IMG/VR virus record: IMGVR_UViG_3300032224_000241
Coordinates: 1 to 44,267 of that record
DNA: 44,267 bases
Source: a virus
Reading direction: 5' to 3' (one strand)
A model generated the notes under the pieces. It made no database searches. It worked only from the letters and a program-made list of their open reading frames with translations, and was not told the origin of the DNA. Positions 24,812-44,267 of this stretch are shown here, piece by piece. Position numbers and translations under genes: made by a program. Positions within the stretch are counted from its first letter, which is position 1. Every line of letters begins with the position of its first letter.

Positions 24812-24900
24812 AAGGCGAGAATACCCCAAAAAACCCCGCCACGCCGAAAGGCGCTTCTAAGCCTCATTATTAAGCCGACCTGCTTGGCGAGCCTCGGGGG

Positions 24901-24928
24901 TTGTCTTACAGGCTCAGGCTGTTATACT
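24901..24928 (+). promoter_or_regulatory. Candidate early promoter
   Basis: TTGTCT (24901-24906) and TATACT (24923-24928) are spaced by 16 bases, and TG lies one base before the -10 (TGTTATACT). It is the best promoter-like sequence upstream of the early genes and would start a leader of about 460 bases. A related extended -10 (TGTTATGCT) lies at the late boundary. Confidence 0.55.
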
Positions 24929-25309
24929 GAAGGGACTGGCACGGCTGAGTTTTTAGAATCCCCGAGGGGCAAAACTCAAAAGTGAAAAATCAGTGGTCAG
25001 GGATAAAACTCTGGTGAACTTAGGAAGTCATTAAATCCCTAGGGAACTTCTTAAGGTGACAGAAAGATTATTACCTGATAATTACATAGCGAAGCCAAGA
25101 AGTTGTTAAGTTAGATTCTAGAATCGGCTAGACCTACTACGGTGCGACGCCCGAGGATAACCTGATTGACATGTTACGCGATGACTACTTATTAGCAGAT
25201 ATGTATAGCGATTACTGACCTCTATCAATTACGCAACGCACCGAGTTCTAGATACAACGACGATTGGCGATATATCGAAAGTGCTGTCGCTCTAAATTAT
25301 TAAGGCGAA

Positions 25310-25376
25310 ACACACAAGTAATTATGAGTTGCTTGTGTGTCTTGTGTTATCAGACACAACTGACGAGCCTCGTCAG
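25310..25376 (+). promoter_or_regulatory. Three tandem hairpins in the early leader
   Basis: Hairpin 1 is ACACACAAG (25310-25318) with CTTGTGTGT (25332-25340). Hairpin 2 is TTGTGT (25342-25347) with ACACAA (25354-25359). Hairpin 3 is CTGACGA (25360-25366) with TCGTCAG (25370-25376). They end six bases before the GAAGGGTAA site of the first early gene. Hairpin 3 and its flank recur at 26253-26289. Confidence 0.75.
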
Positions 25377-25396
25377 CGACACGAAGGGTAATAAAT

Positions 25397-25771
25397 ATGA
25401 ATACAACAATCGATATCCGTGACATCAAGTTCAACCAAGTAATAACAGTTGAACTAAAAAATGGCCAATTCATTACCGGTCATTTTCGTGGCAAAAGTAA
25501 AATCGTGAATAACGATTGCGAAATCACTGACCGCAAAGTTATTAACTTAGCAGCAACAACTGTTGATTCAAAACAACCTGAAGCATCAATTCTTGAAAAC
25601 TTTGCTATCAACTGTTCACAAGTTGTTAGATATTCAGTGAACGAAGAATATGCTGACAAAGTCAAGAAGGCTATGTGGCAACGATCATTAGATCAAGTTG
25701 CTGATTCATTAAACAAAATTGACTGGTCAAAACTTGACGAGTCATTGATAACAAAAGAGGTGGAAGCATAA
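25397..25771 (+). CDS. First early protein, possible Sm-like barrel
   Basis: The 124-residue protein is not recognised with certainty. Residues 12-46 read NQVITVELKNGQFITGHFRGK..VNNDCE, and the pattern of strands and LKNG turn recalls the Sm1 motif of LSm/Hfq-type RNA-binding barrels. The second motif is weak (SQVVRYSV near 73-80). The C-terminal 40 residues are helical and charged. It is the first gene after the structured leader and has the GAAGGGTAA site. An RNA-binding role would fit the structured RNAs around it, but this rests on pattern only. Stop overlaps the next start (TAATG). Confidence 0.65.
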   Translation: MNTTIDIRDIKFNQVITVELKNGQFITGHFRGKSKIVNNDCEITDRKVINLAATTVDSKQPEASILENFAINCSQVVRYSVNEEYADKVKKAMWQRSLDQVADSLNKIDWSKLDESLITKEVEA

Positions 25772-25950
25772 TGAAAACTTACGAAGTAGTTTATCAAGTC
25801 AAAGCAGTTATCACTGCTAACAGTAAAGAAAGAGCAACTGCCGAAGTTAGTCATGCGTTCTGGGACGCAGATCGCGGTATGGCAAATTTCGCTGTCTATG
25901 AAGTTGAAGAAAAATCAATGAAAATAACAGAAAGGGAACTTAGTCTATGA
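25771..25950 (+). CDS. Small early protein of unknown function
   Basis: The 59-residue protein (MKTYEVVYQVKAVITANSKERATAEV...) has a strand-helix-strand look similar to the small ferredoxin-like or dodecin-like early proteins of phages. It is coupled on both sides, starting at TAATG and ending at ATGA. The codon use matches its neighbours. Function unknown. Confidence 0.7.
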   Translation: MKTYEVVYQVKAVITANSKERATAEVSHAFWDADRGMANFAVYEVEEKSMKITERELSL

Positions 25951-26201
25951 CTACTTCAACACAATTGATTAAATGGCGTGGCAATCCGCAACGCAACAAA
26001 CAGTCTGACCGGCAATGCTATGACTGCGGTTATTTCTTTACAACCAAAGTTGATTTGATGTTGCATGCCGATTTTCACCGAGGCGAACGAGTTGTTCGTG
26101 AAACTGCTTGCATCTGTGGTGAAATGTACGATGTCCGTATGGGTAATTGCACCTACTGTAATCGTGTTCATTCTGCTGGCTGGACATTAGATTCTAACTA
26201 A
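25947..26201 (+). CDS. Classical C2H2 zinc finger plus zinc ribbon protein
   Basis: The 84-residue protein contains a canonical C2H2 finger, C24-x2-C27-x12-H40-x3-H44, with the hydrophobic positions of TFIIIA-type fingers. A zinc ribbon of C55-x-C57 and C68-x2-C71 follows. Such fingers are uncommon in bacteria but occur in phage and Ros-like regulators. It probably binds nucleic acid. It begins in an ATGA overlap with the previous gene. A structured intergenic region follows. Confidence 0.75.
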   Translation: MTTSTQLIKWRGNPQRNKQSDRQCYDCGYFFTTKVDLMLHADFHRGERVVRETACICGEMYDVRMGNCTYCNRVHSAGWTLDSN

Positions 26202-26212
26202 TTTATGGCGAA

Positions 26213-26289
26213 ACCGTGCTTCCGTCAGCACGGTCTATCGGTAAATGCCGGTACTGACGAGCCAATCGTTAGAAAAACATGAAGGGTAA
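26213..26289 (+). promoter_or_regulatory. Second early leader: hairpins plus GAAGGGTAA
   Basis: An 8-bp perfect hairpin ACCGTGCT (26213-26220) pairs with AGCACGGT (26227-26234). CTGACGA (26254-26260) can pair with TCGTTAG (26266-26272). The block ACTGACGAGCC...CGT-AG...GAAGGGTAA (26253-26289) copies 25359-25391 of the first leader, with a G-T pair and a longer loop in place of the perfect stem. This suggests a maintained RNA structure ahead of two early units. Confidence 0.65.
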
Positions 26290-26292
26290 ATC

Positions 26293-26745
26293 ATGACAAC
26301 AGAAACACAATATAACGAACCAACAGTAGAAGCAATTGCTGAGGAATTCGTTAAAGATAACACTACCTCTGAGATAGTAAAAGAGTTAGTTAAGTACAGC
26401 AATTCAGTTGATTCATTACGAAGCAACCTTGAATATGAAAGAAATCGCAATACAGCCTTGGCTAATAAATTAGATATAGTCAAGAATTTCATCACCGAGC
26501 ATGTTAAAGATGACGAACCTGCTTCTGTTGATGAACTGAAAGAACTAGCAGCCGAACTTGACTTCACTCTAACTAAACGAGTCACAGTTGAATTCACAGT
26601 CACATACAACTTGACTATTGAATGTGATTTAGATGAAGAAGTTACCGATAATGACTTCCGCGTTAATATGGATTACAACGGAGTTGGTGAAGTGTATGAC
26701 GAAAACGAAGACTGGTCTGAAATCACGATTGAAGACGAGGATTAA
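26293..26745 (+). CDS. Acidic coiled-coil early protein
   Basis: The 150-residue acidic protein has a helical N-terminal part, a likely coiled coil (SLRSNLEYERNRNTALANKLDIVKNF near 48-73), then a beta-type region (KRVTVEFTVTYNLTIECDLDEE) and an acidic end. I do not recognise the family; similar coil-plus-strand proteins occur in actinophage early regions. GAAGGGTAAATC precedes the ATG. Next gene follows after two bases. Confidence 0.65.
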   Translation: MTTETQYNEPTVEAIAEEFVKDNTTSEIVKELVKYSNSVDSLRSNLEYERNRNTALANKLDIVKNFITEHVKDDEPASVDELKELAAELDFTLTKRVTVEFTVTYNLTIECDLDEEVTDNDFRVNMDYNGVGEVYDENEDWSEITIEDED

Positions 26746-26747
26746 TT

Positions 26748-26966
26748 ATGAGTCCCGTATTTGTTTTCAATAAAGACTGGTTAATTTGTTATTGTGGCAA
26801 CGAACCACACATGTCAGGTTTCTATGCCTGCAATAAAGACGGAAATAAACAACACGACGAATTGGGTAGCCCGACTGATGATTGGTCGGGCACTCATTAT
26901 TACTGCGCTGATTGTGCGTTAGTAATCAATATGAAAAAGAAAACTACTAGAAGGGTAAGCGCATGA
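26748..26966 (+). CDS. Small zinc-binding early protein
   Basis: The 72-residue protein has cysteines in C14-x-C16 (CYCGNEPHMSGFYAC) and later C53-x2-C56 (YYCADC), with His residues nearby (PHM, THY). This suggests one zinc site. The C-terminus is basic (KKKTTRRVSA). It overlaps the next start by four bases. Function unknown; a nucleic-acid-binding or host-takeover role is plausible. Confidence 0.65.
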   Translation: MSPVFVFNKDWLICYCGNEPHMSGFYACNKDGNKQHDELGSPTDDWSGTHYYCADCALVINMKKKTTRRVSA

Positions 26967-27169
26967 AATCAATCAAACACTCTATAAAGTTAGAAACTTT
27001 ATTAGATGAAAACAGTGAAGTAGGTATGCAGATGTTGGCACTACCTGCTGCGACTAGAAACGCAATGCTCAATCAAATGGTCAATGACCTGCTAGTTCCA
27101 AGAATCGAGCCAATTCTTGAAGAACTAAATCAACATGGCTCTTATGCAATACTAAAAGTGAGGCAATAA
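26963..27169 (+). CDS. Small helical early protein
   Basis: The 68-residue protein (MKSIKHSIKLETLLDENSEVGMQMLALP...) is all helix in appearance, with LPAATRNAMLNQMVNDLLVP in the middle. It has no recognised domain. The GAAGGGTAAGCGC element precedes the ATG, and the stop overlaps the next start (TAATG). Confidence 0.62.
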   Translation: MKSIKHSIKLETLLDENSEVGMQMLALPAATRNAMLNQMVNDLLVPRIEPILEELNQHGSYAILKVRQ

Positions 27170-27432
27170 TGTTAAATACAGAAACAGATAGTTATGTAGT
27201 TCTATCTCCTGGTGGCCATTATCACGATTGGGCTACTAAATGCACAATGATCAAATCAAACCAATATGCTGTTATGCGGTTTTCTGCATATACAAAATGG
27301 TTCAACACGGCACGATGGGCTAAATCAAATAAAGAAATAGCACTAGCACTACCGGCACCAGCATTCGTTGGCGATACTTACGCAATTGCGCAAGATATGG
27401 CTGACGAGTTAAACCAACCAATGAAAGGGTAA
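27169..27432 (+). CDS. Early protein of unknown function
   Basis: The 87-residue protein has a mixed pattern (YVVLSPGGHYHDWATKCTMIKSNQYAVMRFSAYTKWF) rich in aromatic residues, with a C-terminal helix. The strand-rich first half could be a small barrel. It starts at a TAATG overlap and its stop is only four bases from the next ATG. No family is recognised. Confidence 0.62.
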   Translation: MLNTETDSYVVLSPGGHYHDWATKCTMIKSNQYAVMRFSAYTKWFNTARWAKSNKEIALALPAPAFVGDTYAIAQDMADELNQPMKG

Positions 27433-27436
27433 ATAA

Positions 27437-28423
27437 ATGGCACATAACATAGAAGAATTCGCAGACGGAAGTTCTGCGTTCTTTTCAGCAAGGGAAGTTG
27501 CTTGGCACAAACTAGGCACAATAACTCCTGACGCATTGACAGCAAAAGATGCGTTGAAAACTGCACAATTAGATTGGGTAGTCAAAGTGACTGAACAACC
27601 TATTTACAGCAAAGTTGATGACAAAACAATGCAACTCGATGACAAGTATCTAACATATCGTGATCACCCAAAGACAGGATTATCTGCTTTAGGTGTTGTC
27701 GGTAATCGTTATACACCTATTCAAAACTTAGAGGCATTTGATTTCTTGAATCATATAGCCGACGAGTCAGGTGCTTCATTTGAAACTGCTGGTTCGCTGA
27801 ATGGTGGCGCACGAGTATTCATGACTATGAAATTCCCCGAGTCAATGAAGTTAGCAAGCGGTCAAGATGTAATTGATAATTACATCATGGCTGTTAATAG
27901 TCATGACGGCTCATCTTCTTTCACCGTAGCCGTAACACCCATTCGTGCTGTATGTACTAATACAGTTCGCTTAGCACTTAATTCAGCCGTATCAAAACTT
28001 TCGTTGAAGCATACTGCTGGTGCTAGTGCCAAAGTTCAACAAGCACGCGAAACTCTAGGTATTGTGTTTAAGTATCAAGAGGAATTCGAGAAAGAAGTTG
28101 AACGCTTACTATCTGAGAAGTTCACAGATACGCAATACAAGAAGTTCGTTGAGGCACTTATTCCAGAGCCAAAAGACGATTCAACAACACGCAAAGAAAA
28201 TTCAGTCGAGAAGGTTCGCTCTGAATTGATGGGATTGTGGAAAGCGCCTACGCAAGCCATAGTAGCAAATACTAAGTGGGCTGCTTACAATGCTGTTGTC
28301 GAATACTCTGACTGGGTCAAACCAGTTCGTGGTGGCGAAGATAAGCAAGAACTTCGTGCTGAAAAAATCATTCTAGGCAATAGTGAGAAGTTGAAGCAGA
28401 AAGCACAACTTCTTCTAGCCTAG
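27437..28423 (+). CDS. DUF932 / phage-plasmid-like protein
   Basis: The 328-residue protein matches DUF932 (the phage/plasmid-like family TIGR03299). It opens ADGSSAFFSAREVAWHKLG near 9-27 and has YRDHPKTGLSALGVVGNRYTPIQN near 73-96, the internal FTVAVTPIRAVCTNTVRLAL near 161-180 and a long C-terminal helical part. It is widespread in phages and plasmids and of unknown function, with a suspected role in DNA metabolism or host defence evasion. GAAAGGGTAAATAA precedes the ATG, the longest match to the loop complement of the late hairpin (12 bases). Confidence 0.9.
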   Translation: MAHNIEEFADGSSAFFSAREVAWHKLGTITPDALTAKDALKTAQLDWVVKVTEQPIYSKVDDKTMQLDDKYLTYRDHPKTGLSALGVVGNRYTPIQNLEAFDFLNHIADESGASFETAGSLNGGARVFMTMKFPESMKLASGQDVIDNYIMAVNSHDGSSSFTVAVTPIRAVCTNTVRLALNSAVSKLSLKHTAGASAKVQQARETLGIVFKYQEEFEKEVERLLSEKFTDTQYKKFVEALIPEPKDDSTTRKENSVEKVRSELMGLWKAPTQAIVANTKWAAYNAVVEYSDWVKPVRGGEDKQELRAEKIILGNSEKLKQKAQLLLA

Positions 28424-28451
28424 TTGCTAATCCTGTTTGTTTAACAATTCC

Positions 28452-28591
28452 TGTGCGCCTCTTATAGTGATTCATTTATGCGGTCTAACCCTTTACCCGA
28501 CCCAATAATGAAAACCGCTCTAATAGGCGCACAAGGCTTCTAAATGAACGGCGAAAACTGACCGCGAGCCTGACTTGATTAGGCAGGGTCA
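28452..28591 (+). ncRNA. Candidate structured RNA with pseudoknot pairing
   Basis: Helix A is TGTGCGCCT (28452-28460) with AGGCGCACA (28525-28533). Helix B is TTCATTTA (28471-28478) with TAAATGAA (28541-28548) and crosses helix A as a pseudoknot or alternative fold. Helix C is GCGGT (28480-28484) with ACCGC (28514-28518), or alternatively ACCGC at 28561-28565. Helix D is TGACC (28559-28563) with GGTCA (28587-28591) around GCCT/AGGC. The loop of C contains TTTACCC (28492-28498), complementary to GGGTAAA of early ribosome sites. No gene fits here. Confidence 0.6.
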
Positions 28592-28602
28592 AACTGTAAA
28601 AT
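28575..28602 (+). promoter_or_regulatory. Candidate internal early promoter
   Basis: TTGATT (28575-28580) and TAAAAT (28597-28602) are spaced by 16 bases, the same spacing as the first early promoter. It lies at the end of the structured intergenic region. A small hairpin ATGAAG (28608-28613) with CTTCAT (28623-28628) follows, then the gene at 28648. Confidence 0.4.
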
Positions 28603-28647
28603 AAGACATGAAGTCAAAGTGGCTTCATAAATTAACGGAAGGTATAT

Positions 28648-28827
28648 ATGGCGAAGGCAACAAAACTAAACGGCTCATCACGCAATCTATGTGATGGTTC
28701 ATTACAAGAATCACCATACGAAGCAGGAACTAAAAATGCTTGCATAGTTTGCGGACGAATGACTACTACAAAACGCGAAGGTGTACAGCGTCGTCATACT
28801 GCTAAAAAAATAAAACAGGAAGCATAA
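28648..28827 (+). CDS. Small basic cysteine protein
   Basis: The 59-residue basic protein (MAKATKLNGSSRNLCDGSL...) has C15 and a pair C32-x2-C35 (ACIVCGR) in a context like a half zinc ribbon. It ends KKIKQEA. It is preceded by ACGGAAGGTATAT, a variant of the early ribosome element lacking one G. Such small basic zinc-ribbon proteins are frequent in actinophage early regions. Function unknown. Confidence 0.65.
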   Translation: MAKATKLNGSSRNLCDGSLQESPYEAGTKNACIVCGRMTTTKREGVQRRHTAKKIKQEA

Positions 28828-28851
28828 CAAACTAACGGAAGGGTAATAAAA

Positions 28852-29091
28852 ATGCTGTTTATGATCGGTTCATTCATTGTTAGTGGCTTAGTCGGCACAC
28901 TAATAGCGCTACGCCTTATGGCTATTGATGCACAAGAACATGGAACTAAATTAACTGTTCGTGGTCGCATAGTTGTAGGGGTTGCTATCGGATTAGGAAT
29001 TGCTTTATTCATAGTCCTAGTCAATGGCATGTGGTGGGATTGCACTATTTACGATAGTGGTTCTGCCTGTCATTTCACTTGGGGGTATTAA
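28852..29091 (+). CDS. Two-pass small membrane protein
   Basis: The 79-residue protein has two hydrophobic segments (MLFMIGSFIVSGLVGTLIALRL and GRIVVGVAIGLGIALFIVLV) joined by a short basic loop. The tail has two cysteines (DCTIYDSGSAC). It is an early membrane protein, perhaps for superinfection exclusion or membrane modification; nothing in it decides this. It has the GAAGGGTAATAAAA site. Its stop overlaps the next start (TAATG). Confidence 0.65.
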   Translation: MLFMIGSFIVSGLVGTLIALRLMAIDAQEHGTKLTVRGRIVVGVAIGLGIALFIVLVNGMWWDCTIYDSGSACHFTWGY

Positions 29092-29750
29092 TGCAAACAT
29101 TCATGCCTGATAGTGATTTCAAAGGAGTTGCTAAGTCGCTTGATAATAAGCGACTTGGCAAACAAAGAGTTGAGGCTTATCAAATACTCAATGCTTTAAC
29201 TGGCAAATCAAAAGGTTGGATTCATCACCCTGCTACAAGAATGTGGCGTGGTTATGAATGGCAACTTGCTAATTACGGCCATGAAATATGCCGGGAATGG
29301 ATTGCTAGAGGATTTCAAGATTCTTTAGCGCCAGACTTTTGGAACTTCATGGAACAAAACACGCCATGTCATAAACCTTGGTGGGTTAATAATCGCGCAT
29401 TACAACTTACACACCAATCTAATTTGTTAAGAAAAGATTGGACTTACTACTCTAAATACTTCCGAGTACCTGATGACCTACCTTACATATGGCCATTAGA
29501 TGACGAGCAAGCATTTTGGTGTGGTGACCTACGAGAAAGGAATGGAACTGAATTGCTACCAAACGGAATAGTGTATTTGACTTCAAAACAGGTGGCTGAG
29601 TTATTAGGTGTATCACCTAAAACTATTAGTGCTTACAAAGCGCGTGGTCAAATGCCCGAGCCTGACCGTGAATACGGCAGGACACCATTGTGGAAACATT
29701 CCACGATTCAAGAGTGGCGCAAAGATTTACGCACTCCAATTATCAAATAA
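29091..29750 (+). CDS. MSMEG_6728-like protein fused to MerR-type HTH
   Basis: Residues 1-125 match MSMEG_6728-family proteins, which I recall as pyrimidine-dimer-glycosylase related. The match covers MQTFMPDSDF, SLDNKRLGKQRVEAYQIL near 16-33, HHPATRMWRGYEWQLANYG near 45-63 and CREWIARGF. Residues 160-210 add an excisionase/MerR-type HTH (LTSKQVAELLGVSPKTIS near 163-180 and PLWKHSTIQEW). The N-terminal part would act on DNA and the HTH would recruit it. ATG 29091 at a TAATG overlap is preferred over the in-frame TTG at 29079. This fusion is unusual to my knowledge. Confidence 0.72.
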   Translation: MQTFMPDSDFKGVAKSLDNKRLGKQRVEAYQILNALTGKSKGWIHHPATRMWRGYEWQLANYGHEICREWIARGFQDSLAPDFWNFMEQNTPCHKPWWVNNRALQLTHQSNLLRKDWTYYSKYFRVPDDLPYIWPLDDEQAFWCGDLRERNGTELLPNGIVYLTSKQVAELLGVSPKTISAYKARGQMPEPDREYGRTPLWKHSTIQEWRKDLRTPIIK

Positions 29751-29764
29751 CGGAAGGAAGGGTA

Positions 29765-29944
29765 ATGAAACCAATTCATGTATATAAGTTAGCGGTATAT
29801 CTGAAAGATGATGCCGAAGACTTGAATGCTGAAGAAATACAAGAAGCAATAAAAACTGAACTTGATGGCACTTATTATTTAAGTGTATTTGAAGTTGAGT
29901 GGCAAGGCGTAATTAGAACAGATGCGATCAGCCATGAAGAATAG
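29765..29944 (+). CDS. Small acidic early protein
   Basis: The 59-residue acidic protein (MKPIHVYKLAVYLKDDAEDLNAEEIQ...) has a beta-alpha-beta appearance with a Glu-rich helix. ATG 29765 is decided by the element GAAGGGTAATG whose last A is the start codon A; an in-frame upstream ATG at 29690 lies in the previous gene and lacks a site. Function unknown. Confidence 0.68.
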   Translation: MKPIHVYKLAVYLKDDAEDLNAEEIQEAIKTELDGTYYLSVFEVEWQGVIRTDAISHEE

Positions 29945-30062
29945 ACCTGATTGGTTAAATATCATGGAAAAAATCGCTACCGAAAAACTTGCAGAAGTCC
30001 TGCAAGAAATAGAAGAAGAAGGGGAAGGCAATAATGAGTACATCACTAGCAATAACGAATGA
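29934..30062 (+). CDS. Tiny coupled ORF before RecT
   Basis: The 42-residue frame (MKNRPDWLNIMEKIATEKL...) overlaps the previous gene by 11 bases and the RecT gene by 29. It is helical and acidic (EEEGEG). It has no ribosome site, so expression would depend on coupling. The GAAGGGGAAGGCA in its end is the RecT ribosome site. Moderate doubt remains. Confidence 0.45.
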   Translation: MKNRPDWLNIMEKIATEKLAEVLQEIEEEGEGNNEYITSNNE

Positions 30063-30813
30063 TCAAACCTATTGGTCACCACAACAACTATCAGCGTTGA
30101 AATCATTAGGATTGTCGCAAGCCGATTCAGGTGATTTAGCGTTCTTTTTTCACCAAGCACAACGGACTGGGTTAGATCCATTTGCTCGTCAGATTTATAT
30201 GATAAATCGTGGCGGAAGATGGGGCATTCAAACCAGTATTGATGGCTTTCGTATTATCGCTCAACGAAGTGGTCAATATGCTGGACAGACTGCGCCTTAT
30301 TGGTGCGGAGATGATGGTGTTTGGAAAGATGTATGGCTTTCTAATACGCCACCAGTAGCAGCAAAAATCGGTGTTTATCGTCAAAACTTTGCTGAGGCAA
30401 CTTGGGCAGTTGCTCGTTGGGAATCTTATGCTGTATTGAATAATCCAATATGGAAAAAGATGCCCGATGTTATGTTGGCAAAGTGTGCTGAATCATTAGC
30501 ACTACGCAAGGCTTTTCCTAATGATTTGTCAGGTATTTACACTGATGAAGAAATGAGCCAAGTTGATGTGTCGGTAGAAGATAAAGTCAAACCCAAGAAG
30601 GTTGATTTACAGATACCGGCAAAAGAGCCAATAGATACAACTGGTGTTGATTGGGAATCATTAGCCCAAGCAATAGAAAACCTATCCGACAAAGACGCAG
30701 TCAAAAGAATGTGGAATGCTCGGAAAGAAATGCTTGACGCAGTTATCCCCGACAGTAATCCCCCTACTACCCTGCGTGAAGTGCTGATACAGAAAGTTGC
30801 CGCACTAGCATAA
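30034..30813 (+). CDS. bet: RecT/Bet-family single-strand annealing protein
   Basis: The 259-residue protein matches phage Bet/RecT recombinases in its N-terminal 180 residues: FFHQAQRTGLDPFARQIYM near 38-56, GGRWGIQTSIDGFRIIAQRSGQYAG near 60-84, and the C-terminal core PDVMLAKCAESLALRKAFPNDLSGIYTDEEM near 144-174. It anneals single strands during phage recombination and repair. The C-terminal 80 residues are acidic and low-complexity. Partners in the same unit are a Cas4/RecB-like nuclease (32885), SSB (36491) and RusA (35229). Confidence 0.92.
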   Translation: MSTSLAITNDQTYWSPQQLSALKSLGLSQADSGDLAFFFHQAQRTGLDPFARQIYMINRGGRWGIQTSIDGFRIIAQRSGQYAGQTAPYWCGDDGVWKDVWLSNTPPVAAKIGVYRQNFAEATWAVARWESYAVLNNPIWKKMPDVMLAKCAESLALRKAFPNDLSGIYTDEEMSQVDVSVEDKVKPKKVDLQIPAKEPIDTTGVDWESLAQAIENLSDKDAVKRMWNARKEMLDAVIPDSNPPTTLREVLIQKVAALA

Positions 30814-30977
30814 TGACAAGAATAATCAATCCATTAGTGGCTGACTACATGGTCAAGTCATCTAAAAAATTATTCAATGCGGCAACTAGTGGTGACCCTG
30901 AATTAGCAGAGGCAACTTTGCTTAATATCAGGGCATCAATTGACAGTTATATCCTAGCCATAAAAGATGAAGGGTAA
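30813..30977 (+). CDS. Small helical protein after RecT
   Basis: The 54-residue protein (MTRIINPLVADYMVKSSKKLFNAATSGD...) is helical with a TPR-like short core (DPELAEATLLNIRASIDSYI). It starts in a TAATG overlap with RecT and ends in the GAAGGGTAA of the next gene, whose TAA is its stop. Unknown function; coupling to RecT suggests a recombination accessory. Confidence 0.65.
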   Translation: MTRIINPLVADYMVKSSKKLFNAATSGDPELAEATLLNIRASIDSYILAIKDEG

Positions 30978-30979
30978 TC

Positions 30980-31552
30980 ATGAAACTTATGGAAGATAAA
31001 TGCTTTTGGTGCGGAACTCGCATCACAAGACCAAGCAATAATATGTTATGGGTATGTGACTATGAATCTACACATTGTGAAGATCACCCAGTCGCATACA
31101 ATTTGATGGACTTGACTAAGACTGACGAGTGGGCGCCTCATCAGTCTAGGAAAGATGTATTTCAAATAATAAGACAAAATCATTACATCACTAAAGCGCA
31201 ACGAAGCGGTAAATACATACGCGGAATTGACGATAATGTTGTGATGATTAGCAACAAAGCAAGAAGCACTAGTCGTAAGTCTGCGGAAAAGGTATTACCA
31301 AATACCGGCACTATACGCAGACTGGTTTATGACACGATTGCTGCTAACAATGATAAAGGATATACCGATTACGAATTAGAAACGGTATTAAAGGGCAGTC
31401 ATCAAACAATATCAGCAAGTAGGCGCACATTAGTTTTGGACGGCTTCTTGATTGATTCAGGCAAGACACGCATAAATCAAAACGGAAACGATTGTATTGT
31501 GTGGATCACTGCTGATGAGTTTAGCAACGGAATGCTGTTTGCTAATGTCTAA
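30980..31552 (+). CDS. Zinc-finger plus winged-helix protein
   Basis: The 190-residue protein has an N-terminal zinc site (C8-x2-C11, then CDYESTHCEDH near 26-36). A C-terminal winged helix occupies residues 109-175 (TGTIRRLVYDTIAANNDKGYTDYELETVLKGSHQTISASRRTL to GFLIDSG). The winged helix is common in actinophage early genes. It is probably a DNA-binding regulator or replication accessory. It uses the GAAGGGTAATC site. It overlaps the next start by eight bases. Confidence 0.72.
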   Translation: MKLMEDKCFWCGTRITRPSNNMLWVCDYESTHCEDHPVAYNLMDLTKTDEWAPHQSRKDVFQIIRQNHYITKAQRSGKYIRGIDDNVVMISNKARSTSRKSAEKVLPNTGTIRRLVYDTIAANNDKGYTDYELETVLKGSHQTISASRRTLVLDGFLIDSGKTRINQNGNDCIVWITADEFSNGMLFANV

Positions 31553-31721
31553 AGAATACTCATGGAAAGATGGGTGGGCATTAAGTTATCCTCACCCATT
31601 ACCTGAGCCACCTAAACAAATACAACGCGAAACGATTTTTCGTTGTTCTTGCACAGGTAATTATGTAGAAATAAACCGCGAGTGTTCGCTATGCGGTCAG
31701 ACTATGAAAGGAAGCGCATGA
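31545..31721 (+). CDS. Small zinc-ribbon early protein
   Basis: The 58-residue protein (MSKEYSWKDGWALSYPHPLPEPPKQI...) ends with a zinc ribbon of C-x-C and C-x2-C (FRCSCTGNY and RECSLCGQT). ATG 31545, inside the end of the previous gene, is chosen because upstream in-frame ATGs would give a Cys/Leu-rich extension. It ends in an ATGA overlap. Function unknown. Confidence 0.65.
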   Translation: MSKEYSWKDGWALSYPHPLPEPPKQIQRETIFRCSCTGNYVEINRECSLCGQTMKGSA

Positions 31722-32065
31722 CAATAACACCTGAAAAAGTAGAAACACGACTATACGAATTGAGCAAAGAAATTGATTCTGCTCATGACGAATTGGTCGC
31801 TGCTGAAAAGAAATATCACACCGATAAAGCAGTTTTTGAGATAGCGATTGCTAGATCAAGAATTCATATTGGTATGAATAATCAAAAACTTCGAGTAGGT
31901 GATATCGCAGATAAAGCATTACTAGAAGTTGAAAAAGAATGGGTTGATTTACAAACTGCAGAAGCGTTAGTTAAAGCCGCAAGAGGTAATGCTGCTCGCG
32001 TAAGAACTCAAGTAGATATCGCTCGTTCAATCGGAACGAGTGTTCGTGCCTCTTTAGAGGTATAG
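31718..32065 (+). CDS. Coiled-coil early protein
   Basis: The 115-residue protein is almost entirely helical with a heptad-like pattern (VETRLYELSKEIDSAHDELVAAEKKY near 9-34 and LEVEKEWVDLQTAEALVKAARGNAARV near 69-95). It resembles small phage proteins of unknown role that bind RecT or SSB partners. ATG 31718 is supported by AAAGGAAGCGC and the ATGA overlap with the previous gene. Confidence 0.7.
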   Translation: MTITPEKVETRLYELSKEIDSAHDELVAAEKKYHTDKAVFEIAIARSRIHIGMNNQKLRVGDIADKALLEVEKEWVDLQTAEALVKAARGNAARVRTQVDIARSIGTSVRASLEV

Positions 32066-32083
32066 TAGATAAGGAAGGGTAAA

Positions 32084-32632
32084 ATGAGAAAAAAAATAAC
32101 AATATCAATAGTGATATTCGCGCTAGTTTTTTTGGCGTTGAATGTTGCTAACGCGAGGGCAGATGTTTATGTCAAGGTAGATGCTAGCGGTAATGCTATC
32201 GGTGGCGCAATCATGTGTGATGCTGGAACTTGTGCTGCTGGTTCATTATATTCAGAATCAACATTACAACCAGGCGAGCAATATGTTTTGCAAGGGACTG
32301 GTTTTGCGGGTATTGGAAATAACAATCCAAATACACAAGTAACAGTTGATCTACAAACAAATGTTTGGACTATAAACAGTCAAGCACAGGTAATTATGCC
32401 TGACACATTTGAACCAGTTTTAATACAATCTGTTCAAACATTTACACCCGAAACTAATCCTTGGAATCCTGCACCTGTTATTGCAGAACCTATATTTATT
32501 AATCCACAAGATGTTCTTATGACAACTTTAAGTGTTCAAACATTTAATGTAGTTATGGCAACAAAAAGCGGAATAAAAATTACTAAAAAAGAAAATGCTA
32601 AAGTGTTAATCAGAAAGAAGGGTAAAAAATGA
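32084..32632 (+). CDS. Secreted or surface early protein
   Basis: The 182-residue protein has a clean signal peptide (MRKKITISIVIFALVFLALN) with probable cleavage after ANARA at residue 26. The mature part is beta-rich with a Cys pair (MCDAGTCAAG near 44-53), and the end is basic (RKKGKK). Export of an early protein suggests a role at the cell envelope such as superinfection exclusion. No family recognised. It has the GAAGGGTAAAATG site and a four-base overlap with the next gene. Confidence 0.7.
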   Translation: MRKKITISIVIFALVFLALNVANARADVYVKVDASGNAIGGAIMCDAGTCAAGSLYSESTLQPGEQYVLQGTGFAGIGNNNPNTQVTVDLQTNVWTINSQAQVIMPDTFEPVLIQSVQTFTPETNPWNPAPVIAEPIFINPQDVLMTTLSVQTFNVVMATKSGIKITKKENAKVLIRKKGKK

Positions 32633-32904
32633 AAGTAAAAGAACTAAAAGAAGTCATCAAAGATATGCTTGATGATGATATTTTGTTTGTTGCTTTATTT
32701 GATAAAGACGAAGCCGACGAACATGCAATGAATAACTTAAATGACGCAAAAGATTTTAAGTTCTCAGAATATGATTGGTCAGATATTGTTGATAAAATGA
32801 ATAATGATGAAGGTATCTGGCAAGAAATTATGGGTTCATGGAGATACTTTATTGAGTTAGAGTTCAACAAAATCAAGAAGGGTAATGATGACAATAGTCA
32901 ATGA
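32629..32904 (+). CDS. Small acidic early protein
   Basis: The 91-residue acidic protein (MKVKELKEVIKDMLDDDILFVALFDKDEADEH) has helix-strand-helix character. The N-terminal half resembles the short DUF6225-like phage proteins of unknown role, a weak call. It has the GAAGGGTAAAAA site. Its 3' end contains the ribosome site and start codons of the Cas4-like gene and overlaps it by 20 bases. Confidence 0.65.
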   Translation: MKVKELKEVIKDMLDDDILFVALFDKDEADEHAMNNLNDAKDFKFSEYDWSDIVDKMNNDEGIWQEIMGSWRYFIELEFNKIKKGNDDNSQ

Positions 32905-36889: not shown

Positions 36890-36992
36890 ATCGCAAACTA
36901 TCAAAACACAGTGTTATCACTGCGGTAAATGGTATGTCATAGGAAAAAAAGAAATAAGAGCAGTTAATTATTGTTTTGACTGCGTAGATTAA
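36858..36992 (+). CDS. Small four-cysteine zinc protein
   Basis: The 44-residue frame overlaps the SSB end by 32 bases. It carries two C-x2-C pairs (TQCYHCGKWY and NYCFDCVD) in a basic context, a compact zinc-ribbon pattern. The N-terminal part is read over the SSB tail, so the real start may be later. Expression is probable but not certain. Confidence 0.5.
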   Translation: MKNLLTNFLGKSQTIKTQCYHCGKWYVIGKKEIRAVNYCFDCVD

Positions 36993-37003
36993 CAGGGGGA
37001 TTG

Positions 37004-37183
37004 ATGAGTGAAGGCGACAGTATTATTGATTCCGAAGTGGCTGCAATGATGCTTGGGGTGAGTCCTGATGCATTACGCATGCTGGTATATAGAAAAAAAT
37101 TAGTGCCAGTAGGAAGGCAAAAGCGAAGAAGCCGATTCCTTCTCGCTGATGTTCTGGCACTACAAACACGCCGAAGCAGGTAG
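37004..37183 (+). CDS. MerR/excisionase-type HTH regulator
   Basis: The 59-residue protein reads IIDSEVAAMMLGVSPDALRMLVYRKKLVPVGRQKRRSRFLLADVLAL, the full winged HTH of the excisionase/MerR-like class. ATG 37004 follows GGGGGATTG. It is the last early gene, directly upstream of the late promoter-like sequence, so it is a good candidate for a late-unit regulator or for controlling its own boundary. No integrase is present to make it an excisionase. Confidence 0.78.
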   Translation: MSEGDSIIDSEVAAMMLGVSPDALRMLVYRKKLVPVGRQKRRSRFLLADVLALQTRRSR

Positions 37184-37207
37184 TTGGAATACTTTCTTGC
37201 TAATGTG

Positions 37208-37216
37208 TGTTATGCT
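37208..37216 (+). promoter_or_regulatory. Candidate late promoter, extended -10
   Basis: TGTTATGCT reads as an extended -10 (TG-n-TATGCT). It is close to the early TGTTATACT at 24920-24928. No good -35 was seen. Transcription would start near 37222-37224, precisely at the base of the large hairpin that follows. Confidence 0.5.
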
Positions 37217-37222
37217 TCCTGT

Positions 37223-37288
37223 CAATGGGTGAGGTCTATCTGAAATCTGTTATTTACCCTTCCAGAAATTAGATAGCCTCGCCTGTTG
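37223..37288 (+). ncRNA. Late-leader hairpin with loop complementary to early ribosome sites
   Basis: Bases 37223-37234 pair with 37277-37288, 37236-37241 with 37271-37276, 37242-37243 with 37269-37270 and 37246-37249 with 37263-37266. That is 24 pairs including four G-T wobbles, one bulged T and a 2x2 adenine internal loop. The terminal loop 37250-37262 is TTATTTACCCTTC, exactly the reverse complement of GAAGGGTAAATAA. It begins at the predicted late start site and lies in the leader of the ParB-like gene. It could act as an antisense RNA on early mRNAs, as a protein site, or as a leader regulator. Confidence 0.75.
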
Positions 37289-37303
37289 TAACGAAAGGCA
37301 AAC

Positions 37304-37945
37304 ATGGAAGCAATCAAAGTATCAGTTGATACCTTAAAAGAATTTCCCGGCAATCCGCGTAAAGGTAATGTTAAAAAACTAGCGGAATCATTGACGACTA
37401 ATGGTCAATACAAACCTATTGTCGTGCAAAAATCAACACAACAAATTCTTGCTGGTAATCATTTATGGAAAGCAGCAAAAGAATTAGGTTGGCAAGAAAT
37501 TAACATTGTTGAAATTGAAGTCAATGATGATCAAGCGAAAAAAATTGTTGCCGCAGATAATCGCTTAGGCGAATTAGGAACATACGACGAGCAAGCATTA
37601 TTAGATTTATTAGAAGAAATCAATTTAGAAGGAACTGGTTACGAACCAGCAGATGTTGATGATTTATTAGCATTCTTAGAAGAAAAAGTTGAAGTTGATT
37701 GGAAAACCGGCAACACTTTAGAGGGACAACAAGAAAATGTGCAGCGTCGCCCAACATTATCTGAAAGAGCAGAACATTACGCAGAACGCACAATTAGATT
37801 ATTGATGTGTGAATATCCAAACGCACAATATGTTTGGATAATTGAAAAACTGACAGCACTCAGAGAACAATATGGCGTCGAAAGCAACGCTGATGCAATT
37901 CTAAAACTGGTAGAACAAACAACAGGAGAAAACAGCCCATCATGA
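37304..37945 (+). CDS. ParB-like nuclease-domain protein
   Basis: The 213-residue protein has the ParB/sulfiredoxin-type N-terminal domain: the box LKEFPGNPRKGNVKKLAESL near 11-30, PIVVQ near 38-42, and ILAGNHLWKAAKELG near 48-62 with the G-N-H nucleotide-binding motif. The C-terminal part is helical. ParB-like proteins of this type often stand beside base-modification genes in phages and may act as CTP-dependent or nuclease-like partners. GAAAGGCAAAC precedes the ATG. It overlaps the dioxygenase by four bases. Confidence 0.85.
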   Translation: MEAIKVSVDTLKEFPGNPRKGNVKKLAESLTTNGQYKPIVVQKSTQQILAGNHLWKAAKELGWQEINIVEIEVNDDQAKKIVAADNRLGELGTYDEQALLDLLEEINLEGTGYEPADVDDLLAFLEEKVEVDWKTGNTLEGQQENVQRRPTLSERAEHYAERTIRLLMCEYPNAQYVWIIEKLTALREQYGVESNADAILKLVEQTTGENSPS

Positions 37946-38805
37946 TTGACTTAGAAGTAATTCCAGTCAAGCGAGTAATTTCAAGAGATCAATCAAAAGA
38001 AATCAAAGGCAATGATGTTCCTGATTTAGAAGCAAATGTTACTAAAGCAGGTATCTATGTTGATGCTGAAACTAATGAACCATTTTTAGTTTATTGTGAG
38101 ATGCCGGCAGATGCAGTTCCTAAATTGCGTCAAGCAGTGCGTAATGTTAAATACAGTTCATCAGGCGTGACTCGTCAATCAACTGGAACCGAAAATCATT
38201 CTCGTACATTCGGTATGGCACCACGCAAACCATTTCAAACTCGTGAAGCATGCAGACCTACTAGTCTTACATACGAACAACCCGAAGAACATGATGTGTT
38301 AGTTGAAACAGCAGATTTATTAGCAGACATGATGCGTGAATTTGCACCTGATATCTATGACAAAGATGTGCAAGAAACTGGCGCAGTCACAGATGAGTGG
38401 CGTATCAGCGAGCGCTCGCTATGGACTAGCGGAGTTATCAATAAAACTTCTACACTTCCATATCATTTCGATGGCAACAATTTTGATATGTGGTCTGCTA
38501 TGCCGGTAATACGCAGAGGCACTCGTGGTGGTTATTTATCTATGCCTGAATATGATTTGACTATTGAATGTCGCGATGGCTGGGTGTTATTTTTTCCAGG
38601 ATTTAGATATCTGCATGGCGTAACGCCAATTAAACATGTTGCTAAAGATTCTTACAGATACACAGTTGTTTATTATTGCTTGAAAGGCATGAAAGATTGT
38701 TTTACTTATGCAGTAGAACAGAAGGAAGCACGGAAGCGCAGAACTGATCGCGAAGTTGGATTAGCGTCAGCAGTCAAAGGTGATACCGCTTTCAAAATAA
38801 AATGA
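37942..38805 (+). CDS. TET/JBP-family 2OG dioxygenase for DNA base oxidation
   Basis: The 287-residue protein shows the TET/JBP pattern: H175-x-D177 (PYHFDGNN), GGYLSMPEYDLTIECRDGWVLFFPG near 196-220, distal His225 (LHGVTPI) and Arg239 (SYRYTVVYY). An N-terminal helper region carries NHSRTFGMAPRKPF near 85-98. These enzymes hydroxylate 5-methylcytosine or the methyl of thymine. It is encoded between a ParB-like gene and a glycosyltransferase with four-base overlaps, so it would produce hydroxymethyl base for glucosylation. No cytosine methyltransferase is in the window, so thymine is a possible substrate. Confidence 0.85.
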   Translation: MIDLEVIPVKRVISRDQSKEIKGNDVPDLEANVTKAGIYVDAETNEPFLVYCEMPADAVPKLRQAVRNVKYSSSGVTRQSTGTENHSRTFGMAPRKPFQTREACRPTSLTYEQPEEHDVLVETADLLADMMREFAPDIYDKDVQETGAVTDEWRISERSLWTSGVINKTSTLPYHFDGNNFDMWSAMPVIRRGTRGGYLSMPEYDLTIECRDGWVLFFPGFRYLHGVTPIKHVAKDSYRYTVVYYCLKGMKDCFTYAVEQKEARKRRTDREVGLASAVKGDTAFKIK

Positions 38806-39587
38806 AATACACTATTGCGATACCGTCTTATCGACGACCTGATATATTAAAAAATCAGACACTCGCAGTATTAGACAGACTTTCGGTTAATCGTGACAAC
38901 ATTGTTATATTTGTTGCCAACGAAGAAGAATACGAAACGTACAACACGGTACTCAATGGCGAGTATCAAATAGTTGTAGGTGTTCGTGGCATATCTAGTC
39001 AAAGAAAGTTTTATCATAACTGGTTTCCAGTCGGCGAACGCATTGTTAGCATTGATGACGACATGGCAGACCTATTAGAACTCGGCGACAAACAGTTAAT
39101 TCCTACGCAATATACGATAGATCAAATCGTTGAAATGGGATATAAATACGCAGAACTAGAAGGCGCAAAGATGTGGGGCATCAATCCCACAATGAATCAT
39201 TTCTTTCTTAAAAATCATGTGTCAGTAGGTTTGCGATATATTTGCGCGAACTTCATGGGAACATTCGCAGGTGATTGGATATTCACAGACCCTAATCGCC
39301 GCATGACACCAACAGGCGAAGACCATCACAGCACTCTTAGAGGCTTCACTCGTTATGGTTCAGTAGTTAGATTAGAATTCCTATGCCCCAAGACAAAGTA
39401 TTTTGCTACTGGCGGTATAGATGCTTGCGTTACAGAAGACGGAGCAAAGAGAGCGGATAGGCACGCTGAAGAATTAAGATGGGTTCAATCAAGATACCCT
39501 GATATATCTTCAATTCAAATCAAAGCAGGCGGAGTAGTCAATCTTCGCTTAAAGCCTATTACCTTCAATAAATACCCACGACCATAA
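38802..39587 (+). CDS. TET/JBP-associated GT-A glycosyltransferase
   Basis: The 261-residue protein has a GT-A type start YTIAIPSYRRPDILKNQTLAVL near 3-24 and the nucleotide-sugar/metal motif IDDDM (84-88). MWGINPTMNHFF and GEDHHSTLRGFTRYG lie later. It matches the TET/JBP-associated glycosyltransferases predicted to add sugar to oxidised bases in phage DNA. Its four-base overlap with the dioxygenase supports joint action. The sugar and base are not known. The terminase small gene follows after 11 bases. Confidence 0.82.
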   Translation: MKYTIAIPSYRRPDILKNQTLAVLDRLSVNRDNIVIFVANEEEYETYNTVLNGEYQIVVGVRGISSQRKFYHNWFPVGERIVSIDDDMADLLELGDKQLIPTQYTIDQIVEMGYKYAELEGAKMWGINPTMNHFFLKNHVSVGLRYICANFMGTFAGDWIFTDPNRRMTPTGEDHHSTLRGFTRYGSVVRLEFLCPKTKYFATGGIDACVTEDGAKRADRHAEELRWVQSRYPDISSIQIKAGGVVNLRLKPITFNKYPRP

Positions 39588-41804: not shown

Positions 41805-44267
41805 TTGTAACTGCGCAGATTGCTGCGAAAACATTGTAGTCGTTCGCGAACCAGTAACGACAATAGCAATAACTGGTGGTGGTCCAGCAGGTCCTCAAGG
41901 AACTACTGGCGCGCAAGGAACTCAAGGTATCCAAGGAACTGAAGGACTTCAAGGTATCCAAGGACTTGATGGCATTCAGGGTGCGCAAGGTGTTGATGGC
42001 TTACAAGGCTTGCAAGGAATTATTGGCGCACAGGGCGTTCAAGGAACTCAAGGATTAGATGGAGTTCAAGGCTCTACTGGTACTCAGGGAAATACTGGAA
42101 GCCAAGGAACTTTAGGCACACAAGGTGCGACAGGTACACAAGGTTTAATTGGAATCCAAGGTGTTGAAGGAATACAAGGAATCCAAGGCACAGACGGAAT
42201 CCAAGGAACGCAAGGCATTCAAGGAGATGGCACACAAGGAACTATTGGTGCGCAAGGTGAAACTGGTACTCAAGGCTTAATTGGCATTCAAGGTGAAATT
42301 GGAATCCAAGGAATTCAAGGTTTAGAAGGTTTACAAGGATTAGAAGGATTGCAGGGTGTACAAGGCACAGACGGCATCCAAGGTTTTGATGGCACACAAG
42401 GCACGCAAGGTTTAGAAGGATTACAAGGCGTTGAAGGTTTGCAAGGCATTCAAGGCACCGATGGTTTACAAGGTTTTGACGGAACCCAAGGAACACAAGG
42501 TTTAGAAGGCTTACAAGGTTTGCAAGGAGTTCAAGGAATTGAACCAGCCCAAGGCATCCAAGGTCTTATTGGTATTCAGGGAGAAACTGGATCACAAGGC
42601 TTAGATGGAATTCAAGGATTAGAAGGCGCACAAGGAACTCAGGGAATTCAAGGCCACGATGGAACACAAGGCATTGAGGGCTTGCAAGGACTTGAGGGCG
42701 CTCAGGGTGTCCAAGGAATTCAAGGACATGACGGAACTCAAGGACTTGAGGGATTACAAGGTTTAGAGGGTGCGCAGGGTACACAAGGCATTCAAGGCCA
42801 TGATGGAATTCAAGGTCTTACAGGCATTCAAGGCGAAACAGGTTCTCAAGGCTTAGATGGAATCCAAGGACATGATGGCACGCAAGGTATTAGCGGAATT
42901 CAGGGAACAACTGGTTCACAAGGTTTAGTTGGTATTCAAGGCGAGCAAGGACTTCAAGGAATTGATGGAACACAGGGTGTTCAAGGAATAATCGGTTCTC
43001 AAGGAACCCAAGGTTTAATTGGTATTCAAGGATTTGACGGTATTCAAGGAGTTCAAGGTAATACAGGTGCTAGTGGAACCTCATCTTCTATTTTTGATTA
43101 CCAAGCAAGAACTAACTCACAAACTCCACCACCTAATGCTGGCGACATTAAATGGAATAATGCAGTACAAATTCTTGCAACAAACATTTATGTATCTCAC
43201 TTAACAGCGCCAAATGTAGATATAGATGTTTTATTAGCAAACATAAAAAATGGCGACATCTTCTTTGTTCAAGATAGAAATAACTCTACTAATTATCAAG
43301 AATGGCAAGTAAACGGAACACCTACAACTGTTCCCAATGATTATTGGACTTATCCTGTAACACTTTTAACATCAAGTGGAACAGGTACAACAGGTTTTGC
43401 AAATGGTCACAATATTTCTCTTATTACACAAAGCGTTGGTGTTCAAGGCGTTACTGGTGCGCAAGGAACAAATGGCGCACAAGGAACTACTGGCGCGCAA
43501 GGGTTACAAGGGCTTCAAGGAATTTTTGGCATTCAAGGTGAAACAGGAACTCAAGGTTTAACTGGATCACAAGGAATTACTGGAACACAAGGTGCGACTG
43601 GAATTCAAGGACTTCAAGGTCTGCAAGGACATGATGGTAGCCAAGGTCTTGACGGAATTCAAGGCATAACTGGCGCACAAGGTTTAGACGGTATTCAGGG
43701 TCAGCGCGGATTACAAGGTGTTACAGGAACTCAAGGCGCTGAAGGATTACAAGGTACTCAAGGTTTACAAGGCCACGAAGGTATCCAAGGACAAATTGGA
43801 TTACAAGGTTTAACTGGCAGCCAAGGCACTCAGGGTTTACAAGGTGTTACAGGTAGCCAAGGTTTAGAAGGAATCCAAGGAACTCAAGGCGTACAAGGTT
43901 CTCGCGGCTTGCAAGGAATAACTGGTAGCCAAGGAACTATTGGTGAAACTGGTGCGCAAGGAACACAAGGTGTTACAGGTTCTCAAGGAACTAATGGATT
44001 AAATGGTTCTCAAGGAACTCAAGGTGCTCAAGGTAATCAAGGTCTAGTTGGTAGCCAAGGCACTAACGGATCAGACGGAAGCCAAGGAACTACTGGTAGT
44101 CAAGGATTAACTGGTAATCAAGGCTTAACAGGTTCGCAAGGTTTAATAGGTTCTCAAGGTTTGACTGGTAGCCAAGGATTAACTGGCATACAAGGAAACC
44201 AAGGAACAACAGGCTCTCAAGGATTAACTGGTTCGCAGGGTGCGCAAGGGGTTCAAGGATTACTTGG
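41797..44267 (+). CDS. Collagen-like tail fibre, N-terminal part (partial, continues at base 2)
   Basis: GTG 41797 starts a frame that stays open to the window end and continues in frame at bases 2-271, about 872 residues in total. The N-terminus SNCNCADCCENIVVV has five cysteines, unusual for a virion protein and possibly disulphide or metal linking. From about residue 22 the chain is a Gly-X-Gln repeat (QGTTGAQGTQGIQG), interrupted near bases 43081-43440 by a globular beta domain (DYQARTNSQTPPPNAGDIKW to FANGHNISLITQSVG). The collagen-type arms should form a long trimeric fibre with a knob in the middle. Gln in place of Pro implies hydrogen-bonded stabilisation. Confidence 0.85.
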   Translation, partial: MSNCNCADCCENIVVVREPVTTIAITGGGPAGPQGTTGAQGTQGIQGTEGLQGIQGLDGIQGAQGVDGLQGLQGIIGAQGVQGTQGLDGVQGSTGTQGNTGSQGTLGTQGATGTQGLIGIQGVEGIQGIQGTDGIQGTQGIQGDGTQGTIGAQGETGTQGLIGIQGEIGIQGIQGLEGLQGLEGLQGVQGTDGIQGFDGTQGTQGLEGLQGVEGLQGIQGTDGLQGFDGTQGTQGLEGLQGLQGVQGIEPAQGIQGLIGIQGETGSQGLDGIQGLEGAQGTQGIQGHDGTQGIEGLQGLEGAQGVQGIQGHDGTQGLEGLQGLEGAQGTQGIQGHDGIQGLTGIQGETGSQGLDGIQGHDGTQGISGIQGTTGSQGLVGIQGEQGLQGIDGTQGVQGIIGSQGTQGLIGIQGFDGIQGVQGNTGASGTSSSIFDYQARTNSQTPPPNAGDIKWNNAVQILATNIYVSHLTAPNVDIDVLLANIKNGDIFFVQDRNNSTNYQEWQVNGTPTTVPNDYWTYPVTLLTSSGTGTTGFANGHNISLITQSVGVQGVTGAQGTNGAQGTTGAQGLQGLQGIFGIQGETGTQGLTGSQGITGTQGATGIQGLQGLQGHDGSQGLDGIQGITGAQGLDGIQGQRGLQGVTGTQGAEGLQGTQGLQGHEGIQGQIGLQGLTGSQGTQGLQGVTGSQGLEGIQGTQGVQGSRGLQGITGSQGTIGETGAQGTQGVTGSQGTNGLNGSQGTQGAQGNQGLVGSQGTNGSDGSQGTTGSQGLTGNQGLTGSQGLIGSQGLTGSQGLTGIQGNQGTTGSQGLTGSQGAQGVQGLL
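41870..43077 (+). repeat. Collagen-like repeat tract, arm 1
   Basis: Nine-base units encoding Gly-X-Gln dominate this stretch, with many near-identical sub-repeats such as GGAATTCAAGG and GGTTTACAAGG. It is a coding repeat, not a CRISPR array, but it is a hotspot for slippage, recombination and assembly collapse. The second arm runs from about 43440 through the junction to base 210. Confidence 0.85.
44145..44267. repeat. Terminal direct repeat, right copy (contig closure)
   Basis: This is the second copy of the 123-base overlap described for bases 1-123. No mismatch was seen on reading both copies. Confidence 0.9.

Follow-up and report, generated by a model that had tools for sequence, protein, structure and literature searches.

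The locus and its boundary hairpin

The DNA analysed here (the window) spans the 44,267 bases of a virus record. From 25.4 to 37.0 kb it carries genes for RecT, a PD-(D/E)XK exonuclease, a replication-initiation-like protein, RusA, SSB and HTH proteins. A ParB-like gene, a TET/JBP oxygenase, a TET-associated glycosyltransferase and the terminase follow from 37.3 kb, and the record opens with the structural genes. From 25.4 to 41.8 kb the main genes share one strand. We infer the label 'early' from gene content (RecT, exonuclease, replication protein, SSB), and the labels 'late' and 'promoter' are putative too. A DNA similarity search against isolated phages gave no match. A proteobacterial host was set aside, as the assignment came from a single 6.8-kb contig, possibly mis-binned, in a MAG labelled as a proteobacterium.

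At 37942-39587 a TET/JBP-family oxygenase gene is followed by one for a TET-associated glycosyltransferase (weak Pfam score), and the pair is likely, from its sequence, to be a DNA base hypermodification cassette. No closed long ORF was seen at 41820-44267; the + strand there can be read as a long series of collagen-like G-x-Q-G units that runs past the window end and probably encodes a fibre-like protein. The region 24820-25380, about 550 nt without a convincing ORF, lies 5' of the first early target gene. It has moderate structure (z -1.9) and no Rfam match, and is perhaps an early promoter region or a non-coding RNA.

The features at the boundary between early and late genes are the following.

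37001 to 37183, + strand: small HTH (excisionase/MerR-like) gene, 5' of the hairpin(s)
37208 to 37216, + strand: extended -10-like TGTTATGCT, a putative leader promoter read from the sequence
37223 to 37288, + strand: boundary hairpin, 24 pairs (12+8+4)
37250 to 37262, + strand: terminal loop TTATTTACCCTTC, 13 nt, antisense to the early ribosome-binding site (RBS)
37304 to 37945, + strand: ParB-like gene, 3' of the hairpin, with its own RBS ACGAAAGGC, a non-target

The hairpin folds at -36.3 kcal/mol (z -6.0), and equal stability was seen in 0 of 200 shuffles. As in antisense RNAs of the RNAIII/6C kind, it is a stable hairpin with an exposed C-rich loop. It is not cis-encoded in the manner of OOP or sar, since its targets lie 4-12 kb upstream on its own strand. 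No Rfam family reached the gathering score across the window, and at E<=10 the hairpin gave only four unrelated weak matches, 6C and C4 antisense RNA not among them. No intrinsic terminator (stem plus U-run) was found in 36950-37400, the hairpin being without a T-run. The ParB RBS ACGAAAGGC showed no complementarity to the loop.

The initial annotation had predicted a transcription start from the extended -10. The motif GTTAYRCT is indeed kept immediately 5' of the hairpin among close relatives of the window, but a two-hexamer scan found no sigma-70 promoter at TGTTATGCT. The extended -10 is also flanked by inverted repeats (37150-37216; AGTGTGTTACACT in relatives), in which ACACGC/GTGTGT is replaced by ACATAC/GTATGT in one relative (L033). 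These repeats resemble a DNA operator, perhaps for the adjacent HTH protein.

We observed nine exact + strand copies of GAAGGGTAA from 25383 to 32885, each just 5' of a start, and the variant AAAGGGTAA at 27424, ahead of a tenth early start. The one copy of GAAGGGTAA on the - strand was the hairpin loop. The ten target sites, with predicted duplex energies of -13.4 to -17.0 kcal/mol, are listed below.

25383 to 25391, + strand: GAAGGGTAA, RBS of gene 25397; -13.7 kcal/mol
26281 to 26291, + strand: GAAGGGTAAAT, RBS of gene 26293, exact 11-base match; -15.1 kcal/mol
26950 to 26958, + strand: GAAGGGTAA, RBS of gene 26963; -14.4 kcal/mol
27425 to 27436, + strand: AAGGGTAAATAA, RBS of DUF932 gene 27437, exact 12-base match; -14.6 kcal/mol
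28838 to 28846, + strand: GAAGGGTAA, RBS of gene 28852; -16.2 kcal/mol
29757 to 29765, + strand: GAAGGGTAA, RBS of a small gene starting near 29764; -16.1 kcal/mol
30969 to 30977, + strand: GAAGGGTAA, RBS of gene 30980; -13.4 kcal/mol
32074 to 32082, + strand: GAAGGGTAA, RBS of gene 32084; -17.0 kcal/mol
32617 to 32625, + strand: GAAGGGTAA, RBS of gene 32629; -14.8 kcal/mol
32877 to 32885, + strand: GAAGGGTAA, RBS of PD-(D/E)XK exonuclease gene 32885; -13.6 kcal/mol

We further slid every + strand 13-mer of the window along the 25 early RBSs, using mechanically called gene starts. The loop 13-mers (37250-37253) had 9-nt antisense matches to 8 of the 25, which no other + strand 13-mer equalled; the next best unrelated 13-mer matched 2. 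Shuffled loops attained the observed match count with a frequency of 0.0009. None of the 28 RBSs of later genes in the window matched the loop. The RBS word of many early genes is AAGGGTAA, and later genes mostly have AGGAG-type sites. The target site is absent from more than half of the early genes, including RecT and SSB. Thus the hairpin with its 24 pairs, coordinates and loop, TGTTATGCT at 37208-37216, the nine GAAGGGTAA starts with AAAGGGTAA at a tenth, and the 12-base and 11-base matches were all exactly as the initial annotation had given them, and its view that the loop match exceeds chance is borne out by the shuffles and the 13-mer scan.

Hairpins at the same boundary in relatives

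Hairpins at the same boundary were found in about 35 viral contigs (fragments of uncultured viruses), which fell into clades A and B. Clade A contigs were found by scans with the TET protein, the ParB protein and the promoter-hairpin word. A scan with TTATTTACCCTTCCAG was rejected, as 5 of its 9 contig matches were chance matches without a hairpin. In clade A a strong hairpin occupies the equivalent place, mostly shortly 5' of ParB. The stems diverge strongly among subgroups yet remain paired (18 aligned hairpins), and RNAalifold gave double compensatory changes in 7 of 8 consensus pairs. While the stems diverge, the loop core is nearly invariant, with ACCCTT kept except in G018. The gene 3' of the hairpin is sugar-nucleotide-epimerase-like in G014, G015 and G023-G026 and another gene in G022; since the downstream gene differs among relatives, the hairpin is not tied to ParB.

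The exceptional contig G018 has the loop TTAATCCCTTTTC and early RBSs of the form AAAGGGA, and no AAGGGT remains before its starts. A site of the target kind precedes the DUF932 gene in all 12 orthologs examined; it reads GAAAGGGAAG in G018 (loop AATCCCTTTT), CAGAAAGGGTTAAAA in G022 (loop ACAAAACCCTTTCTG, 11 contiguous pairs) and GGGTA in the others. For the ortholog of gene 26293, the RBS is ACAAAGGGAGAT in G018 and AAGGGTAAA in the remaining orthologs, the site having changed to AAAGGGAGAT along with the G018 loop. The loop-site pairing in G018 is only 6-7 bp. Covariation in clade A beyond the core was weak (p 0.02-0.3). We had first suspected a simple GAAG/GAAAG covariation, which proved unreliable, both forms being mixed in G024 and in G005-G009. 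It was dropped because, in a matrix test on clade A alone, a genome's own loop did no better than other clade A loops.

Clade B contigs were added by a scan with a replication-protein alignment. In these, the same boundary carries a tandem pair of hairpins: HP1 overlaps or touches the HTH stop codon, and HP2 lies before ParB. HP1 is located in the last part of the HTH gene and thus doubles as coding sequence. Upstream of these hairpins we saw nothing that resembles a promoter. We also searched without bias for hairpins presenting a loop that matches several RBSs of their own locus, and this recovered the clade B hairpins, with different words: loop CCTGTCCT with RBS AGGACAG (L179, L204, L211), loop TTTATCCCTT with RBS AAGGGATAAA (L205, L207), loop TTGTCCCTT with RBS AAGGGACAA (L193, L196) and loop TTAATCCCTTTT with RBS AAAAGGGA (L202). 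In a replication-protein tree, some forks of which are weakly supported, the TATCCC, TGTCCC and CTGTCC loops stand on separate clade B branches, so that several switches of loop together with word are needed.

Hairpins with a CCGTTCA loop were seen 5' of ParB or epimerase genes in L213 (13472-13600), L220 (13424-13550) and L243 (28150-28190), and also in Arthrobacter phage Ottawa; they had no matching RBS words, and such a hairpin is perhaps a terminator replacing HP2. Ottawa was rejected as a member, since its RBSs, once read, gave no set matching the hairpin before ParB.

Covariation of loops and ribosome-binding words

When loop sets were permuted among the 35 genomes, pairings of at least 8 bp with the own loop numbered 126, against a permuted mean of 51.0 and a maximum of 92. 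After deduplication to 25 genomes the count was 100 against a mean of 42.8 and a maximum of 88 (20,000 permutations), and the result was also seen at 7 and 9 bp. Deduplicated clade B gave p = 0.003-0.006 at 7-9 bp. As the count at 8 bp or more misses most of the CTGTCC class, whose core has 7 bp, and also G018, we added the 7-bp threshold and tables for each class, for which Fisher values ignore shared ancestry:

TTACCC/GGGTAA: 63 of 379 RBSs with the loop word, 6 of 580 without
CTGTCC/GGACAG: 18 of 120 with the loop word, 1 of 839 without
TGTCCC/GGGACA: 11 of 204 with the loop word, 2 of 755 without
TATCCC/GGGATA: 11 of 87 with the loop word, 17 of 872 without

For two words, GGGAGA (common among the RBSs) and CGTCCC (in loops), there was no exact partner. 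Late RBSs of the same genomes never paired with their own loop over at least 8 bp (0 of 175, versus 51 of 506 early RBSs). The four RBS words were found at 129 of 959 RBSs, versus 14 of 1656 in outgroup loci (those with more distant TET proteins) in which no such hairpin was found. A tandem-hairpin finder recovered 12 of 19 positive controls and gave only look-alikes in the outgroup (3 of 88 loci).

One contig, G027 (L177), stops short of the hairpin region; its RBSs are AAGGGACA. From these we predicted a TGTCCC loop before the hairpin sequence was fetched. The other contig end, fetched later, carried tandem hairpins with the HP1 loop CTATGTCCCTTC, as predicted. The remaining contigs tried gave no hairpin at their other end.

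A candidate antisense switch of early translation

The hairpin, its complementarity, the restriction to early RBSs and the co-evolution of loop and sites are established at the level of sequence, and pairing of the loop with many early RBSs is well supported by these comparisons. Such pairing is likely to repress translation, because the paired bases are the Shine-Dalgarno (SD) sequence close 5' of the start. We therefore propose, with a probability of roughly three in four (0.74), that a phage antisense RNA, with the hairpin as its active part, represses early translation through SD pairing. A rigid stem would present the loop (two loops in relatives), which would base-pair with the SD region of the phage's own early mRNAs, about ten in the window. 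The paired region would be hidden from the 30S subunit, and early translation would be shut down once the boundary region is transcribed. In clade A the hairpin would act as a 5' leader at the early-to-late transition, for which the conserved extended -10 directly 5' of it is suggestive, and in clade B it would give feedback from where the early operon ends; both forms would be a switch acting after the early genes are expressed. We infer that this RNA is expressed, works in trans and arises at one of these two points, the early-to-late transition or the early operon's end.

The initial annotation had named a trans-acting, single-RNA riboregulator and had put forward loop/site covariation in relatives as one check. 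The covariation was found (100 against 42.8, maximum 88, in 25 genomes), and multi-target pairing is strongly supported by it and by the L177 prediction; action in trans and late onset are proposed. 'Single RNA' is correct as far as the window goes, but in many relatives two hairpins with unlike loops stand in tandem.

The same pairing could also be used by a hairpin at the 3' end of the early polycistronic RNA, giving autogenous feedback (in cis or by a processed 3'-end RNA) and not a late-onset switch. We consider this possible, with the odds against it. The main genes of 25.4-41.8 kb are on one strand with no terminator predicted 5' of the hairpin, and the clade B hairpins overlap the HTH stop codon with no promoter-like sequence before them; as they adjoin the 3' end of an early gene, feedback fits them equally well, in cis or in trans. 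Against it stands the conserved GTTAYRCT just before the first stem base in the window's close relatives, which places the hairpin at a 5' end. Antisense pairing is able to activate translation in known systems, so pairing here might open structure in early mRNAs or shield them from RNases. This is very unlikely, as it is the SD itself that is paired, a few nt 5' of the start codon, and the 30S subunit should be excluded.

More improbable still is that GAAGGGTAA is the RNA operator of a RegA-like phage protein, with the hairpin unrelated or bound by the same protein. T4 RegA does repress about 30 mRNAs at their start regions (PMC3014915), but the loop on the + strand complements the sites instead of repeating them, so a single RNA-binding protein would not recognise both, and loop and sites co-vary as complements in four classes. 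We rate equally low the reverse direction, in which early RBSs would pair with the late leader and delay late expression until early mRNA decays. Pairing is symmetric, so direction cannot be read from sequence, but many early genes would have to keep the same site for one target, and the downstream gene is not conserved. The least probable reading is a cis element only (a terminator, an RNA-stability leader or a ParB autoregulator) with an incidental loop match. Intergenic hairpins are common in phages, and Ottawa has one before ParB without a matching RBS set; yet there is no T-run, the ParB RBS is unpaired, the hairpin stays while the downstream gene differs, and incidental matches would not be expected to covary.

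The proposed antisense RNA has partial counterparts. In Staphylococcus aureus RNAIII, the C-rich loops 7, 13 and 14 bind G-rich SD regions on several mRNAs by base pairing, so that the ribosomal initiation complex is blocked (PMC2837412). The likeness lies in a hairpin loop with a C-rich core directed at several SD regions. RNAIII is, however, a long host RNA acting on host genes, whereas here a short phage element has the phage's own early genes as proposed targets, the loop and its sites change together, and one loop accounts for the whole duplex of about 7-12 bp. Mycobacterial B11 and actinobacterial 6C RNA likewise use a C-rich stem loop, which pairs with G tracts beside the RBSs of several targets (PMC12395582); their loops are C runs, unlike the lineage-specific words TTACCC, TATCCC, TGTCCC and CTGTCC. 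The c4 antisense RNA of phages P1 and P7 pairs around an RBS, through complementary sequences likely to be in loops, and blocks translation (PMC12197685), but of one target (ant) and for immunity, compared with about ten dispersed early genes here. T4 RegA silences many mRNAs by acting where their translation starts, at about the time of the late transition (PMC3014915). It is a protein on AU-rich start regions, whereas the proposed repressor here is RNA and its operator a G-rich SD word; a scan of the window proteins, run without a dedicated RegA family model, gave no RegA match.

Among phage-encoded antisense RNAs in developmental control, lambda OOP and P22 sar are cis-encoded, long and directed at one gene each; here the complementarity is short and involves many genes on the hairpin's own strand. 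Searches of an open-access library turned up no phage RNA credited with an early regulon of several genes.

In phages, the shut-off of early translation is known to be carried out by proteins (RegA and RegB in T4). In the present case the evolution of the sequences alone suggests that an RNA hairpin has this role, for about ten genes together. We hold it somewhat better than an even chance that it is a phage RNA analogue of RegA, a protein-free early-regulon switch working through a shared, lineage-specific RBS word. The loop/word pairs, of which there are at least four distinct ones, would make the switch of each lineage largely private to its own mRNAs. RBSs rewritten to keep complementarity after a loop change are natural compensatory mutants on the scale of a whole regulon. 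The several distinct loop/site pairs are potential translation controllers, and they provide a search rule for uncultured phages: a hairpin whose loop is antisense to the most frequent RBS word of its own genome is a candidate.
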